NCBI GenBank assembly: GCA_016762995.1
Contig: JAESUT010000060.1
Location: forward strand, 16,997-32,725
Length of the DNA: 15,729 nt
Origin: Gammaproteobacteria bacterium
GTDB taxonomy: Bacteria > Pseudomonadota > Gammaproteobacteria > Pseudomonadales > Pseudohongiellaceae
Direction: 5' to 3'
Part shown: positions 6,572 through 15,729 of the stretch, one piece after another
Layout: each line of letters starts with the position of its first letter
Numbering within the stretch: position 1 is the first letter of the stretch
The notes under the pieces: generated by a model
Databases searched by the model: none
What the model was told of the DNA's origin: nothing
Seen by the model: only the letters and a program-made list of their open reading frames with translations
Translations under genes and position numbers: made by a program

Positions 6572-7963
6572 TTATAGCGCTAACCACTCGTTCAGGTCGA
6601 TAATGTCCTGTGGGGTCAATATTCCAGCAACCTGTCGTAGAGTCAGGCTGTCTAGAACATAGTTATAGCGAGCATCGGCATATTGACGCAGTGCGCGATA
6701 GAGATTTTCCCGGGCGCGTAAAACTTCAACGATATTACGCGTGCCAACTTCGGCACCGAGCTCTGTTGCATCTAGAGCACTCTGCGCGGATGTAATCGAC
6801 TGTTGCCGCTGCCCGATGACTAGAACGTCTGTGTTAACACGGCGATAGGCATTACGAATATTCTGAGTGAGCTGACGCTCAGTGAAATTTAGAGATTCTT
6901 GAGCGGAGATTACATTGTATTCTGCGGCACGTCTTCTAGAACGGATTGCGCCGCCAGCGTAGATTGGAATCGAGAGGCTCAGCGCTAAGGAAGTGCGATC
7001 GAAGGCGCCGCCACCAATTTGAATGCCCTGGCTGACGATTGGAGCAGTTACGTTGTGATTCCAGCCGCCAGAAAAATCAATGGTGGGTAGATGATCCGAC
7101 TTTCTCGCCTTCAAGTTTTTGCGCGAGGCCTCCAGATTGTATTCAGCGGCCGCGATAATGAGACTGCTATTCTCCGCTTCATTCTCCCACTCTTTAAGGC
7201 TGCCATCGACTTCGACTATAGGGAAGTCTTCGCGCAGAACATCGATGGAAGGGTGCGCCTGACCTGTAATGGCCTCTAGTGCTTCATAGCGAGATTGCAG
7301 TAAGTCCTGCTGCAGAAACGTAGTGTTTCGCGCTAGATCATAGGCTGCTTGGCTGTCGAAGACATCGGTAATGGCAACTAGACCAACCTCTTCGCGCTGC
7401 CTAGTCTGATCCAGTGAGCGCAGTGCGGCTTCTTCTTCCTGCACATTGGTGTCTAACATGTCGATAGCGCGCAATACGTCGAAGTAGGCGGTGGCGACAC
7501 GCATTATCAGGTCTTGCTCTTGGGCGGCTAAATTTACCGCGGCAGCCTTATCCCGTGCCTTGGCGCTTTGAAAGTTGTACCAGCTGGCCAGATTCAAGAC
7601 GCTCTGAGTGAGGTTCATTCCCCAGCCGTGGTTGTTAAGACCGGGCTTGAAGCTGTGGTCATTAGCGACTCGAGTTAGGGCTGTTTCACCGGTAATCGGG
7701 TTTGTGACATTGGCATAGACTGAATCGGTTGGGCCACTGGTTAGGCGCGAGGTAGCTCCACCAACGCCAATAGAGGGCAGTAGAGAGGAGCGGCTCTGAA
7801 TCATGCTTTCCCGATTCTCGCGGTAGCTGGCTTCGGCCTGCCGCAGAGTAGGATCGTTTTCTAGTGCCAGTTGCAATATAGACAGCAGATCGTCGCCGTA
7901 GCTAAATGAGCTGGCCATGCAGCCCAATACTAGAATTCCAATGTACTTCGCTGGTTTACCCAT
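6572..7963 (-). CDS. tolC: TolC-family outer membrane efflux/secretion channel
   Basis: TolC-type proteins are outer-membrane trimers whose long periplasmic helical barrel docks to inner-membrane pumps for drug efflux or type I secretion. The 463-residue protein has a signal peptide (1-23; likely cut SYG|DD), a mature start like TolC (DDLLSILQLALENDP), and the two-fold internal repeat of the family: LLPSIGVGGA (61-70) and HLPTIDFSGG (291-300) after matching helices, plus VGLVAITDVFDSQ (193-205) echoed by VGTRNIVEVLRARE near the C terminus. It is closer to E. coli TolC than to the lipid-anchored OprM type; a VLGC sequence in the signal peptide is not a convincing lipobox. No pump or adaptor gene is adjacent, so it may serve several pumps. 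A strong candidate promoter/operator lies 110-140 bp upstream. Confidence 0.92.
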   Translation of the reverse strand: MGKPAKYIGILVLGCMASSFSYGDDLLSILQLALENDPTLRQAEASYRENRESMIQSRSSLLPSIGVGGATSRLTSGPTDSVYANVTNPITGETALTRVANDHSFKPGLNNHGWGMNLTQSVLNLASWYNFQSAKARDKAAAVNLAAQEQDLIMRVATAYFDVLRAIDMLDTNVQEEEAALRSLDQTRQREEVGLVAITDVFDSQAAYDLARNTTFLQQDLLQSRYEALEAITGQAHPSIDVLREDFPIVEVDGSLKEWENEAENSSLIIAAAEYNLEASRKNLKARKSDHLPTIDFSGGWNHNVTAPIVSQGIQIGGGAFDRTSLALSLSIPIYAGGAIRSRRRAAEYNVISAQESLNFTERQLTQNIRNAYRRVNTDVLVIGQRQQSITSAQSALDATELGAEVGTRNIVEVLRARENLYRALRQYADARYNYVLDSLTLRQVAGILTPQDIIDLNEWLAL

Positions 7964-11346: not shown

Positions 11347-11377
11347 ATTAGCCTAAGTGCTGCTGGCGTAGGCTAAT
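11347..11377 (-). repeat. Perfect 9-bp inverted repeat spanning the stop codon of the GST gene
   Basis: ATTAGCCTA (11347-11355) and TAGGCTAAT (11369-11377) flank a 13-base loop. On the minus strand it covers the last codons and the TAG stop of the GST-like gene. No T-run follows on either strand, so it is not a standard Rho-independent terminator; it may be an mRNA 3'-end stem-loop or chance. Confidence 0.5.
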
Positions 11378-12012
11378 TTCATAGGTTCTTGCTCTCTGCG
11401 CCCTAGAGTTAACCATTTCTGCACGAAAGGGTTGTCCATTAGTGTCTGCATATAAGTGTGGGCGTCATGGCTGAGGTCTGCCCCGTAGATATCGAAACAG
11501 GCAGCGATAGGTGCATACATACAATCAGCAACTGAGAAGCGCCCGTATAGGTAGTTGCCGTTCTCGCCAAATTTTCGGCGGCAGCAGCTCCATATCGCAT
11601 CAATCCTAGCAATCTCATCTAGAAGTTCAGGTGATGGTCTGGGTTTAAATGAGGCCTTACAATTCAGTGGCCACTCCTTTTTTAGATGGGGAAATCCAGA
11701 ATGAAGTTCGGCGCTAATAGACCTAGCACTCGCACGTCGTTTTGGGCTTGCAGGCCATGCTGAGCCAAGTATAAATTGTTCCGAAATGTATTCACAGATT
11801 GCTAGCGAATCCCAGACCGTTATCTCCCGGTGTAGGAGGACAGGTACTTTCAACGAGGGAGAATAGGGCCCTAGCTTTTCCGCTGTATTGTCCTGATACA
11901 GGGTAACTTGAATCTCTTCGAAATCCACGTCAAACATTTTGAGCAAGAGCCATGGACACATGGACCAAGAAGAATAATTTTTGTTTCCAATTACAAGTCT
12001 AAGAGTATTCAT
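11353..12012 (-). CDS. Glutathione S-transferase family protein
   Basis: The 219-residue protein has a thioredoxin-fold N-terminal domain with the NKNYSSWSMCPWLLLK opening typical of one bacterial GST group (catalytic serine expected within SSWS, residues 14-17). It also has the cis-proline segment KVPVL and the glutathione-binding D-S pair in VWDSLAICEYI, then a helical C-terminal domain with GRFSVADCMYAPIA, the usual capping motif around the conserved Asp. Such proteins conjugate or reduce electrophiles with glutathione; the real substrate cannot be told. ATG 12012 has GGAG about nine bases upstream. It lies 56 bp after pdsO on the same strand and might be read through from it, but no functional link to the sortase system is known. 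Confidence 0.88.
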   Translation of the reverse strand: MNTLRLVIGNKNYSSWSMCPWLLLKMFDVDFEEIQVTLYQDNTAEKLGPYSPSLKVPVLLHREITVWDSLAICEYISEQFILGSAWPASPKRRASARSISAELHSGFPHLKKEWPLNCKASFKPRPSPELLDEIARIDAIWSCCRRKFGENGNYLYGRFSVADCMYAPIAACFDIYGADLSHDAHTYMQTLMDNPFVQKWLTLGRREQEPMKLAYASST

Positions 12013-12068: not shown

Positions 12069-12842
12069 TTATTCGCCATCCGGGCTTTGTGTGAGCATCG
12101 AGCTGCTGTTATCGCGAAGACGAACGATGACTCGGCGATCAAAAAAGTCGGATTCGAAATTTTGTGCGGGATGTAACGGTTTTGTTTCCCCGTGGGCAAT
12201 CGTCCTAATGAAAGAGCTTTGAATGCCTCTACTATTGAGAAATTGCTTCACTGAATTCGAGCGTTCACGTGAAAGCTTAAGGTTCAATTCTGAATTACCG
12301 TTTCGATCGGCATAGCCGGTGATCTCGACACGTGCTGATGGCATCTGTTCCGCGATCTTGATTAGGCTTGTTAACTGTTCTTCGTAGTGTTTTTCTATTG
12401 CGCTGGAGCCACTGCGGAAATTCAGAGAAAGTACCGTGTTGTCGCAGCAGGGAGTAGTTGGCAACTGCATATTTGCAGGATAGGTTCGAGCGCGATTGAG
12501 GGAGAGCTCGGTGAGTCGCTGTTCGGCCAATTGATATTTGGCCTGCATAGTTTGAGCTTCCTCTCGCAATGCGGCCAGATGTAATTGGTTCTCATAGAAG
12601 TTTGCTTGAAGCTCACGGAGATTCGACTTCGCGCGCCATCCTTCACCGAATAATGCACCGAAGGCTGCGCCCACAATGACGCCCGGGGGGCCACCAGCGA
12701 AGCCGCCAAGAATGGCGCCGCTAAGGGCTCCAGTGGTTTCTTCTTTCGATGGTGGATTTTGATAGTCAGCACGTCGCGAATCGGCTGCAGCCGTAGCTGA
12801 AGCGAGCGTGAATATGAGGGCGAGAGAGATTTGCTTAATCAT
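12069..12842 (-). CDS. pdsO: Sortase-system OmpA family protein PdsO
   Basis: The 257-residue protein has a signal peptide (1-20, ending ATAAA), a glycine-zipper membrane segment rich in G-x3-G repeats (about 38-68), a coiled-coil stretch (about 72-115) and a C-terminal OmpA/Pal peptidoglycan-binding domain (about 137-243) with ITGYADRNG, LNLKLSRERSNSVKQFL and FFDRRVIVRL. Asp179 and Arg194 are in the expected diaminopimelate-binding positions. This order (signal, glycine zipper, coil, OmpA) together with the neighbouring pdsR-pdsS pair matches PdsO, the OmpA-like partner of the proteobacterial dedicated sortase system. It probably sits in the outer membrane or periplasm and holds the system to peptidoglycan; that role is inferred. 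ATG 12842 has AGGA about nine bases upstream. It is divergent from pdsR. Confidence 0.85.
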   Translation of the reverse strand: MIKQISLALIFTLASATAAADSRRADYQNPPSKEETTGALSGAILGGFAGGPPGVIVGAAFGALFGEGWRAKSNLRELQANFYENQLHLAALREEAQTMQAKYQLAEQRLTELSLNRARTYPANMQLPTTPCCDNTVLSLNFRSGSSAIEKHYEEQLTSLIKIAEQMPSARVEITGYADRNGNSELNLKLSRERSNSVKQFLNSRGIQSSFIRTIAHGETKPLHPAQNFESDFFDRRVIVRLRDNSSSMLTQSPDGE

Positions 12843-13147
12843 TTCGATAATCCTGTTTTTAGGTGGAACAAAGTTAGGGTTAGTGACGTCTAATGTTCAC
12901 TGTGCACGATTTTTGGAACGTCCCGATGGCTCTAGCCTCGTGACGTCAGTGAGTGTATTAAACAGAACAGTTATTGCTCCCAGAGGCGCGGAAAAAGGCC
13001 ATGTAGTGATTAAATATGGCAGAATCATGGCAATTGCCTCAGAGTGAGTATTGTCGCTCTGATTAATCAGGGAATTCCGGTATAGTCGCCCTAAATCCTT
13101 TATCTACAATGACTTACAGAGATTGGCATGCATAGAAAGAGAGCGAG
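12843..13147. promoter_or_regulatory. Divergent pdsO/pdsR control region
   Basis: These 305 bp separate pdsO (-) and pdsR (+). They contain two copies of GTGACGTC (12883-12890 and 12940-12947, the second within the palindrome TGACGTCA), a 12-bp palindrome CTGATTAATCAG (13059-13070), a GGAATTCC palindrome (13071-13078) and a good -10 hexamer TATAGT (13081-13086). No sortase gene or other convincing gene fits here; a 54-codon plus-strand frame (12883-13047) is discussed under findings. Confidence 0.6.
13059..13086 (+). promoter_or_regulatory. Candidate pdsR promoter with palindrome at the -35 position
   Basis: TATAGT (13081-13086) is a good -10, but the expected -35 window (13058-13063, TCTGAT) does not match. 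Instead the perfect palindrome CTGATTAATCAG (13059-13070) lies there. That layout suggests an activator-dependent promoter, possibly self-regulated by PdsR, which is inference. Confidence 0.35.
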
Positions 13148-13855
13148 ATGAGTAGGCGAATAGCGATAGTCGAGGACGAGGCTGCAATTCGAGAGAACTA
13201 CGCGGATGTGCTGCGTAAGCAAGGCTACGAGGTGCAAACATTCGCGAATCGAAAAGACGCAATGGCTGCATTTGATATTCGTTTACCGAGTCTAGCGATT
13301 ATCGATATCGGTTTGGAGAATGAAATAGATGGCGGCTTTGCTCTGTGTCAGGCGCTGCGCTCGCTTTCAGACACATTACCTATCATCTTTCTTACGGCGC
13401 GCGACAATGACTTCGATACAGTAAGTGGATTACGAATGGGAGCGGATGACTATCTAACAAAGGATATTAGTCTGCCGCATCTAACGGCTAGGATTGCGGC
13501 GCTGTTTCGCCGACTAGATGTGATCGATCTGCCTCCCTCGCCGGAAAGTTTATTGCACAGAGGAAAGCTCTCATTGGATATCAGTCGTCTTACAATTCAG
13601 TGGGACAGGCAGCCAGTTGCGCTAACGGTAACAGAGTTTTGGATGGTTCATGCCTTGGCCAAGTTTCCGGGCCATGTAAAAAGCCGTCAGGTACTAATGC
13701 AAGAGTCGAAAATATTTGTCGATGGCAGCACGATTACCTCACACGTAAAAAGAATTCGTAAAAAATTCATGCAGATTGATAAACAGTTTGATTGCATAGA
13801 GACTGTTTATGGAATGGGCTATCGTTGGAATATTACGCCCGAAAACACGAATTAG
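13148..13855 (+). CDS. pdsR: Proteobacterial dedicated sortase system response regulator PdsR
   Basis: This is an OmpR/PhoB-type response regulator of 235 residues. The receiver domain (1-120) has the acidic pair Glu9-Asp10, phospho-acceptor Asp53 in IIDIG, Thr83 in FLTAR and Lys105 in YLTKD. The winged-helix DNA-binding domain (about 135-230) ends in the typical ETVYGMGYRW. Stretches such as RRIAIVEDEAAIRENYAD, EIDGGFALC and FDTVSGLRMGADDYLTKD match my recollection of the PdsR family, the regulator dedicated to Gram-negative sortase loci, rather than generic OmpR proteins. ATG 13148 follows an AAGAGAG ribosome-binding site. It is divergent from pdsO and upstream of its partner kinase. Its target promoters are presumably those of the sortase, its substrate and pdsO. 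Confidence 0.9.
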   Translation: MSRRIAIVEDEAAIRENYADVLRKQGYEVQTFANRKDAMAAFDIRLPSLAIIDIGLENEIDGGFALCQALRSLSDTLPIIFLTARDNDFDTVSGLRMGADDYLTKDISLPHLTARIAALFRRLDVIDLPPSPESLLHRGKLSLDISRLTIQWDRQPVALTVTEFWMVHALAKFPGHVKSRQVLMQESKIFVDGSTITSHVKRIRKKFMQIDKQFDCIETVYGMGYRWNITPENTN

Positions 13856-13874
13856 AGAACCTTTGCTTAAGTCT

Positions 13875-14078
13875 ATGGCCATCCTGAATTTTAGTTTATT
13901 TCGCAATGACAAGCGTGGATGCATTAACGCCGTGAGCGCAGGAATGCGCAAGAGTGATCGAGGCACAATATTTAGGCTGGCAGACCTGCCAAGAAATTGT
14001 TTTGCAGCAGCAGGCACCCCGTCTTTTAGAAGGACTGTGTCGAATGCTCATAAATTTGGTCAGAAGCTCCCATTATGA
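13875..14078 (+). CDS. Hypothetical 67-residue ORF between pdsR and pdsS (doubtful)
   Basis: I do not recognise this product. The frame starts with MAILNFSLFRNDKRG, is basic, and has no signal peptide, membrane segment or known motif. In its favour, the TGA stop overlaps the pdsS ATG as ATGA (14075-14078), which would couple translation of pdsS, whose own Shine-Dalgarno is poor; and it fills an otherwise empty 219-bp gap between two genes that should be co-expressed. Against it, no good ribosome-binding site precedes ATG 13875, and another plus-strand frame here (from GTG 13954) is also open. It may simply be a leader. Confidence 0.25.
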   Translation: MAILNFSLFRNDKRGCINAVSAGMRKSDRGTIFRLADLPRNCFAAAGTPSFRRTVSNAHKFGQKLPL

Positions 14079-15729
14079 GTCTTTCATTCAGAAACCCATT
14101 TGGAATTCGATTCAAGCTGGTATTTCTTTCCAGTTTTCTGTTGGTCATACCCTGGCTTGGTTATCAATATATTCTAGAAATGGAACAAGTGCTCAGGCGC
14201 GGACAGGAGCAAATTGTCCTAGGTACAGCTCAGGCATTGGCAACAGCGCTTAATGAGCGTCCAGAGCTTTTCGATGAAGGAAGTTATAGGCCAGCTAGGC
14301 GTAGTGAAGATCTCTACGTCTATCCCATCTTCTCCGCGCTCTCACTGGACGATGGCACGCTGACTGACTGGGATGAGTACCAGCAATACGAAGTGGAGTT
14401 CGCTGACAAGGATCAGCTGCGCACTTCATTGAACCCTTCTCGCTATTACGGTCAGGATGAAACGCTAAGCTTTCGTAATATGGTAGGAGAGCACAATGGC
14501 TCGCTGTATGCCTATTTCAAAGTAGTGGACGATGAAATTGTCTATCGTAGTCGCGATGCGCTCAGCGTGCACCGTAGTGATTTCTTAGAAATTACTATGT
14601 TGTCGAAAGATGGAAATGGGATCCAGCGTTATGTAATAGCCCCTCATGAACCAGAGTTTCTCTATCCGTTTCAGGTGGAGGACGGCTACAGTAATCCGAT
14701 TCACGAAGACAGAATCAGCGGTCAGTGGTACGAATCGACTGACGGCTATGTGATCGAGCTACAGATTCCCATGGACATGTTGGGGGACCGGTTAGGTTTC
14801 GCCATCTTCGATGTAGACGATCATAGCCAGCGGTACGTGAATAAAGTGGTGGCAACCTACCGAGTAGCTGATGTGGAGCGGCTTGGGTCTCTGCGTTTAC
14901 CTACGCCTGAGATCGACAGGATCGTGGCCGGAATGGGGCACAATAACTCGCGTATCCAGGTTGTGGATAGAAATGGAAGGGTACTTCAATCGGTGGGAGA
15001 TATTCAGTCAGCAACTGGGTTATTGCTCACCTCACCAACAGATGAGGCTCCTACCAATAAGTACTGGCTCTATATGCAGAACAAAATTCTGAACCCACTC
15101 TATTATCAGTTTCTGACCAAGCCTAGCAACAATTTTATTGATGACTTGTATTCAGAGGTGACACGGGAGGGCGCGCATATTAATGCGGCACTCGGCGGTG
15201 AGGCCACAACGCAGTTTCGTACACTCGCAGATTCCGATACGCGCCTGTTAGAGGCGGCGCATCCGATATTGGCTAACGGCGAGATCATGGGTGCAGTAGT
15301 GGTAGACCAAAATATGAATGGACTCCGAACATTTCGGAACCAAGCGATGGAAATGTTGTTCAATACCATGCTCGCGGTGATGTTGATCGTAACACTCGGT
15401 CTATTTTTCTCCGCTTCGAGAATTTCTTCGCGCATTCGGTCATTGAGAAATCAGGCTGAAGGTATTATTGGGGAGACGGGCAGAATACAAAACACGATCA
15501 TAGCAACACGAAATTCGGATGAAATCGGCGATCTGTCGCGTAGTTTCTCCACTATTGTTGAGCGATTAACTCAATACACTGACTATCTAGAGAATATGTC
15601 TTCTCGGTTATCTCATGAATTACGTACACCAGTCACTGTGGTGCGCTCCTCTCTCGAGAACCTTGGTCTTACTGCGATAGATAAGGAGTCGGCAGTCTAT
15701 ATTGAGCGCGCCGAAGAAGGCATTAAGCG
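14075..15729 (+). CDS. pdsS: Proteobacterial dedicated sortase system sensor histidine kinase PdsS (3' truncated by window)
   Basis: 551 codons are present and the gene runs off the right edge. A short cytoplasmic start leads to TM1 (about 13-31) and then a large extracytoplasmic region (32-426). TM2 (about 428-446) follows, then a HAMP-like linker (447-505) and a HisKA dimerisation domain with His514 in RLSHELRTPV. The ATP-binding HATPase domain lies beyond the window. The extracytoplasmic part has a beta-rich portion (about 85-255: DDGTLTDW, LYAYFKVVDD, SDFLEI, GYVIELQIPMDML, GFAIFDVDD) resembling CBM9/DOMON-type domains, then a PDC/CHASE-like portion (292-415: IQVVDRNGRVL, EAAHPILANGEIMGAVVV). 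This architecture directly after pdsR identifies PdsS. A stop at 14051 prevents upstream extension, so ATG 14075 is the first start; the Shine-Dalgarno is weak. Confidence 0.9.
   Translation, partial: MSLSFRNPFGIRFKLVFLSSFLLVIPWLGYQYILEMEQVLRRGQEQIVLGTAQALATALNERPELFDEGSYRPARRSEDLYVYPIFSALSLDDGTLTDWDEYQQYEVEFADKDQLRTSLNPSRYYGQDETLSFRNMVGEHNGSLYAYFKVVDDEIVYRSRDALSVHRSDFLEITMLSKDGNGIQRYVIAPHEPEFLYPFQVEDGYSNPIHEDRISGQWYESTDGYVIELQIPMDMLGDRLGFAIFDVDDHSQRYVNKVVATYRVADVERLGSLRLPTPEIDRIVAGMGHNNSRIQVVDRNGRVLQSVGDIQSATGLLLTSPTDEAPTNKYWLYMQNKILNPLYYQFLTKPSNNFIDDLYSEVTREGAHINAALGGEATTQFRTLADSDTRLLEAAHPILANGEIMGAVVVDQNMNGLRTFRNQAMEMLFNTMLAVMLIVTLGLFFSASRISSRIRSLRNQAEGIIGETGRIQNTIIATRNSDEIGDLSRSFSTIVERLTQYTDYLENMSSRLSHELRTPVTVVRSSLENLGLTAIDKESAVYIERAEEGIK

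Follow-up and report, generated by a model that had tools for sequence, protein, structure and literature searches.

What does a two-component system named after a sortase do in a genome in which neither the sortase nor its target is in view? This question was raised by a stretch of 15,729 nucleotides (the window; G000:C106:16997-32725, on a contig of 36,850 bp) from a member of the Pseudohongiellaceae, which holds at its 3' end three genes of the Pds system: pdsO, encoding an OmpA-like protein, and pdsR and pdsS, encoding a response regulator and a sensor kinase. Passages of PMC3237569 describe the sortase family of this system, TIGR03784, as a Gram-negative sortase dedicated to a target that is encoded next to it. 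The analysis indicated that PdsRS, often together with PdsO, probably constitutes an autoregulated envelope two-component system in which the sortase cassette is an optional member of the regulon, lost here.

The three genes were first named by reading the sequence, and an earlier note placed pdsO on the minus strand, divergent from pdsR and pdsS and 305 bp away from them; the gene coordinates agreed, and all three proteins scored above the membership cut-offs of the Pds models. PdsO (12069..12842, minus strand) passed narrowly (TIGR03789, 155.2 bits vs. a cut-off of 152.2), scored 57.2 against Pfam OmpA (cut-off 27.2), and contained a signal peptide, judged by eye, and a glycine-zipper-like stretch, for which the glycine-zipper Pfam models scored under cut-off. 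PdsR (13148..13855, plus strand), an OmpR/PhoB-type response regulator with Response_reg and Trans_reg_C domains, reached 400.7 bits with TIGR03787 (cut-off 335.7); this was its best-scoring model, followed by the CreB and PhoB models. PdsS (14075..15729, plus strand), a sensor histidine kinase whose gene leaves the window, scored 561 bits with TIGR03785 for the 551 residues inside the window (cut-off 612.2) and 799.1 bits at full length on the contig (727 aa, end at about 16258), and its kinase boxes were present and readable in the translation. The generic OmpA-, OmpR- and EnvZ-type models compared all fitted worse than the Pds model of the same protein, and the refuting condition of the earlier note therefore failed. 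Where pdsS continues beyond the window (L002), ambiguous bases near its 3' end in this assembly gave X residues in the translation, perhaps from a mixture of strains in the metagenome assembly.

The earlier note had left three places for the sortase and its target: beyond the window, elsewhere in the genome, or nowhere. The contig was extended, and the genome (3.05 Mb, 234 contigs, completeness 92.3%) was searched with sortase and target models. The 4.1 kb of contig remaining beyond the window held neither sortase nor target; the reading frames 3' of pdsS were DUF2889-, PpiC-, NudF-, DUF1249- and CpdA-like (named from their translations, without model check). Genome-wide, there were no matches for the Pfam sortase PF04203 (E<=0.001), the dedicated sortase TIGR03784 (E<=10) or the LPXTG-like target TIGR03788 (E<=1). 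The window locus is therefore not a complete Pds system. The same was seen across the family, so that of the three outcomes "missing" was the one that held: TIGR03784 matched in 2 of 137 Pseudohongiellaceae genomes (G024 and G067), while PdsS (E<=1e-100) was found in 122 of the 137 and in 89 of the 92 good ones. In a sample of the genus, PdsS was above cut-off in 34 of 37 genomes (the remaining three were 65-73% complete), a sortase was present in one, and a target above cut-off in that genome alone. In G024 the sortase and target lay 1.3 Mb away from pdsRS; in G067 the sortase match was in two pieces, and pdsR and a piece of pdsS were also in the genome. A complete system with its sortase and target fallen into assembly gaps, for which the 234 contigs and the incomplete assembly might speak, was rejected on the absence of any sortase match from 135 of the 137 genomes, including 91 of the 92 good ones, and with the contig past pdsS running into unrelated genes it retains next to no probability.

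The sortase of G024 (L111), the sole one of the genus sample, adjoined two divergent target-like genes, and neither PdsO nor PdsRS was found in the 19 kb around it. Among 79 loci of named genomes, in which the DNA scanned extended at most 10 kb from pdsS in either direction and often less, sortase and target occurred near pdsS only in four Pseudoalteromonas loci, with the order srt-tgt-pdsO divergent from pdsR-pdsS. Weak "target" matches antisense to pdsR in several loci were rejected as artefacts of over-extended query frames. In the window the target's place in the Pseudoalteromonas layout was occupied by a glutathione S-transferase (GST)-family gene (11353..12012, minus strand; Pfam GST_N) directly after pdsO; the 56-bp gap suggests a putative pdsO-GST operon.

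The premise that PdsR and PdsS imply a sortase also failed outside the family. In 369 Gammaproteobacteria, PdsS (E<=1e-80) was present in 72 genomes and a sortase (E<=1e-5) in 55. The two occurred together in 41 genomes; 31 had only PdsS (27 of them at least 90% complete) and 14 only a sortase. In other families of the same order (21 genomes), the six genomes with a strong PdsS match all had a sortase. In a PdsS tree of 64 rows, in which ten branches are long and some possibly misplaced, the sortase-free label needed 13 changes outside the family, at least 9 of them on well-supported branches; the family's PdsS formed one clade, nested with 4 rows from sortase-bearing organisms in a larger group (19 rows in all) that had strong support. 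Within one genus and between the same flanking genes, one locus carried sortase, target and PdsO (L212) and another PdsO only (L220). Of the 14 family loci, 7 held a member of the cluster of PdsO and OmpA-like proteins, as did 13 of the 28 sortase-free loci, 5 of the 10 sortase-adjacent loci and 2 of the 7 loci from genomes with a sortase elsewhere. Because the cluster occurred in none of the 6 sortase-target stretches away from pdsRS, these data suggest that PdsO travels with pdsRS and not with the sortase.

Without its sortase the module might be a purposeless remnant in the course of elimination. PdsO was absent from 29 of 67 assessable loci (in all 29 the GST gene was the divergent neighbour of pdsR), and pdsO was the fastest-evolving of the three genes, with a ratio of nonsynonymous to synonymous substitution rates (dN/dS) of 0.07-0.14. 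The values for pdsR (0.01-0.04) and pdsS (0.03-0.06), obtained from the four of eight relatives with finite dS for all genes (the other four were saturated for pdsR and pdsS), place both genes under strong purifying selection. The dN/dS values are low and the kinase boxes are present, and the locus is therefore not in decay; with PdsS retained in nearly all good genomes and the promoter element described below conserved across genera, the remnant explanation is very unlikely.

The promoter element was found between pdsO and pdsR. An alignment of pdsR upstream regions revealed a block of about 80 bp (12954..13034, plus strand) better conserved than its surroundings and present in 62 of 76 sequences scanned (the window and L030-L104, not all of which reach far enough to include it). 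As a small reading frame the block was rejected, since every one of the six frames was interrupted by a stop in 21 or more of the 62 loci and codon periodicity was not clear; as an RNA it was rejected too, since nothing in the window reached an Rfam gathering score (two matches in or near the pdsO-pdsR gap were far under threshold) and there was no consensus fold. Its 3' end contains a TGGCA-n6-TGGCA direct repeat (13007..13034, plus strand; core TGATTAAATATGGCAGAATCATGGCAAT) with the 11-bp period expected of an OmpR-family site, which PdsR would be predicted to bind. A TATAGT (13081..13086, plus strand) may serve as the -10 element of pdsR. Of 62 loci, 55 had such a hexamer, with one mismatch allowed, starting 45-47 bp past the box; in the other 7 the distance was 55-58 bp, about one helical turn more.

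The TGGCA pattern was found in 117 of the 137 family genomes and the reversed pattern, used as control, in 1. Of 30 sites checked in their locus context, 28 sat just upstream of pdsR; sites beyond those 30 were judged by distance to PdsS only. The training set of a motif consisted of 29 sites upstream of pdsR, chosen by hand and including that of the window (score 48.6). There is thus some circularity in the high scores that it gives at pdsR, but no tolQ or target promoter was among the training sites. Of the 75 loci L030-L104, 71 could be assessed for the box, and 69 of these had a score above 8 in the 450 bp before pdsR (membership of the family was assigned by PdsS similarity and gene order, and L095, L096, L099 and L100 may lie outside it). 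Elsewhere in the same loci there were 4 matches, none above 12.1, in 2.49 million positions. The box was also recognisable in Pseudoalteromonas and in several other sortase-bearing or sortase-free loci. One family genome (G119) had two near-full-length PdsS matches, of 829 bits (C70) and 514 bits (C24), and two exact boxes, on C70 and C161. In L215 and L186 an OmpA-like gene lay downstream of pdsS with a box before it; these OmpA-like proteins were nearer to the YiaD and Pal models and far under the PdsO cut-off.

A box that controls only its own divergent promoters (pdsO/GST and pdsRS), with any further sites lineage-specific or due to chance, would describe simple autoregulation. The genome of the window fits this explanation: with up to 2 mismatches, 17 sites were found (7 for the reversed control), the only exact one at pdsR; of the other 16, 13 were within reading frames and 3 outside (one overlapping a start codon), and none stood before tolQ or a pdsO-like gene, the genome's own tolQ promoter not having been inspected. 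In the family, the pattern search gave 22 secondary sites beyond the pdsR site, and one lone site (G089) beside neither pdsR nor tolQ. Twenty of the 22 were inspected (all except G091 C1:1615030 and G119 C161): 7 at tolQ, 3 in other intergenic regions (L297, L298 and L302) and 10 within reading frames. The 7 tolQ sites were mutually similar and all fell between ruvB and tolQ; four of the genomes concerned belong to the window's genus and three to one other genus. Their scores of 25-36 were like those of pdsR sites, whereas the background, 2.49 million positions, gave 4 matches of 8-22. Each was the top match of its locus when the motif was built from six non-family sites only, each had the orientation seen at pdsO, and together they formed a conserved island in DNA not alignable between the two genera. 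TolQ and RuvB were found by BLAST in all seven loci. Two loci were checked with TIGR02796, and TolQ exceeded the cut-off of 221 in both (278.8 and 287.1); TolA was confirmed by TIGR02794 in one, with TolR just under cut-off (118.8 vs. 127.3). Retention of such sites in two genera argues against simple autoregulation, to which we give a modest chance in view of the 130 genomes without a tolQ site among those examined at up to 3 mismatches. Binding of PdsR at tolQ, and the sign of any regulation there, are inferred.

If the box is a PdsR site, it should also stand before target-sortase operons away from pdsRS, and this expectation was met in part. Promoters of remote operons in PdsS-bearing genomes were scored in the pdsO-type orientation over 350 bp upstream and 60 nt of frame, with 203 other promoters as background. 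The sample comprised 18 of the 20 known genomes with a sortase away from PdsS (G259 and G375 left out) and 8 of the 14 sortase-only genomes. Fourteen of the 18 reached the 95% quantile of the background, the strongest being G296 (22.8), G440 (19.4), G377 (18.7) and G189 (12.4); an accompanying shuffle test, with two-base blocks, is approximate and its p-values carry no correction for the number of tests made. A scan of both strands gave 8 promoter matches above 4, all in the orientation seen at pdsO. In four loci the best motif match was within a gene or frame: the target gene (L275 and L285), a kinase gene (L287) or another frame (L276). Five of the 8 sortase-only stretches contained a gene that BLAST matched, more weakly, to PdsR or PdsS.

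The sensor of PdsS was modelled as a Cache fold with a CBM9-like insert of about 200 residues. Pfam CBM9_1 scored below cut-off on PdsS, and a sequence search of the PDB with the sensor gave two weak, irrelevant matches only.

Taken as a mechanism, PdsS would detect a periplasmic ligand, probably a carbohydrate, through this Cache domain. Kinases of its family phosphorylate their partner regulators, and PdsS would thus pass its phosphate to PdsR. PdsR would then act on the box between pdsO and pdsR, controlling pdsRS and the pdsO/GST side, and putatively on the same box where it precedes many target-sortase operons at a distance from pdsRS and, in some Pseudohongiellaceae, tolQRA. The theme common to this predicted regulon would be proteins that link the outer membrane, peptidoglycan and inner membrane. 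In the Pseudohongiellaceae the target-sortase cassette would have been lost and the rest kept under selection. The earlier suggestion that the pair was rewired if the sortase were missing stood in part: the operon of sortase and target has been lost, the pdsO side carries a GST gene and a box precedes tolQ in 7 of the 137 genomes. The old wiring nevertheless persists, as the pair and pdsO keep a box recognisable in some sortase-bearing genera.

Several observations weigh against an envelope system with a regulon of this kind. Besides the loci without pdsO, the motif was patchy outside the family: the best score before pdsR in the divergent PdsRS loci L112-L114 and L116 was at most 6.1, and only 11 of 28 non-family sortase-free loci had any match above 8 (three of the 11 being training loci, and some matches not beside pdsR). 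Four of the 18 remote promoters (G333, G334, G508 and G051) missed the background quantile and that of G024 was marginal (-4.0); 7 of the 18 genomes had PdsS below the model cut-off; several share a family and are not independent; and 2 of the 8 sortase genomes without a strong PdsS match (G342 and G346) also passed. The tolQ site was limited to those 7 genomes (up to 3 mismatches) in two genera of one family, possibly through one ancestral event, and was not seen in the window's genome, whose tolQ promoter was not inspected. The mean confidence of the sensor model (pLDDT) was 69.

The closest named relatives of the window locus were Pseudohongiella and OM182-clade genomes. From position 6572 to the end of the window and on past it (L002) runs a gene block of M14 peptidase, DAHP synthase, DUF924, GST, pdsO, pdsR, pdsS and DUF2889, which in many related loci is flanked by a TolC-like gene and by nudF/DUF1249/cpdA-like genes. 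In E. coli tolC and nudF adjoin each other, and the block may be an insertion between them. In one locus (L057:12166-18548), the space between pdsS and DUF2889 was taken up by another regulator resembling PdsR and by a kinase-like gene.

More broadly, PdsRS may be a widespread gammaproteobacterial envelope system that is not primarily a sortase regulator, reading a periplasmic glycan (perhaps peptidoglycan) via its Cache-CBM9 sensor and tuning the tethering of outer membrane, peptidoglycan and inner membrane (through PdsO or other OmpA-like proteins, Tol-Pal, and the sortase-anchored protein where present); this wider proposal is tentative, with about even chances or slightly worse. The NCBI models name PdsR and PdsS after the sortase, yet in the gammaproteobacterial sample 31 of 72 PdsS carriers had no detected one, so that the name is misleading for annotation. 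The predicted box offers a testable regulon and a link to Tol-Pal, and sortase-free Pseudohongiella a clean background for finding the signal of PdsRS.

No experimental paper on the Pds system was found in the literature searched; a passage of PMC9927453 names pdsO once, within a list of tRNA-synthesis genes, and was not used as support. Compared with the Pds system as defined by its NCBIfam models (TIGR03784, 03785, 03787, 03788 and 03789), the window locus is alike in having PdsO, PdsR and PdsS above the curated cut-offs, and alike to Pseudoalteromonas in a pdsO divergent from pdsRS with the box recognisable upstream of pdsR; it differs in a genome without detected sortase or LPXTG-like target, as in nearly all of its family. 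Unlike the cell-wall kinase WalK/YycG, PdsS has its CBM9-like domain inserted in the Cache fold, and unlike CBM9 carbohydrate-binding modules, to which it has 14% identity, this insert is part of a kinase sensor. For CenKR of Rhodobacter sphaeroides, its authors state in passages of PMC9275681 that no two-component system had been reported before it to have direct control of Tol-Pal genes. As described there, its regulator belongs to the OmpR family, as PdsR does, and has an envelope regulon with a direct-repeat box before tolQ, to which the proposed regulon of PdsR and the predicted box in 7 of the 137 family genomes would correspond; it differs in its half-site (TGA-N8-TGA), in that CenR was demonstrated by ChIP-seq, RNA-seq and gel shift while the role of PdsR is inferred, and in that these passages mention no PdsO-like partner. 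By analogy, PdsRS may work much as CenKR does, as a two-component system of the envelope but with a different repeat, and, if so, would be a Tol-Pal-controlling system of the Gammaproteobacteria distinct from CenKR.

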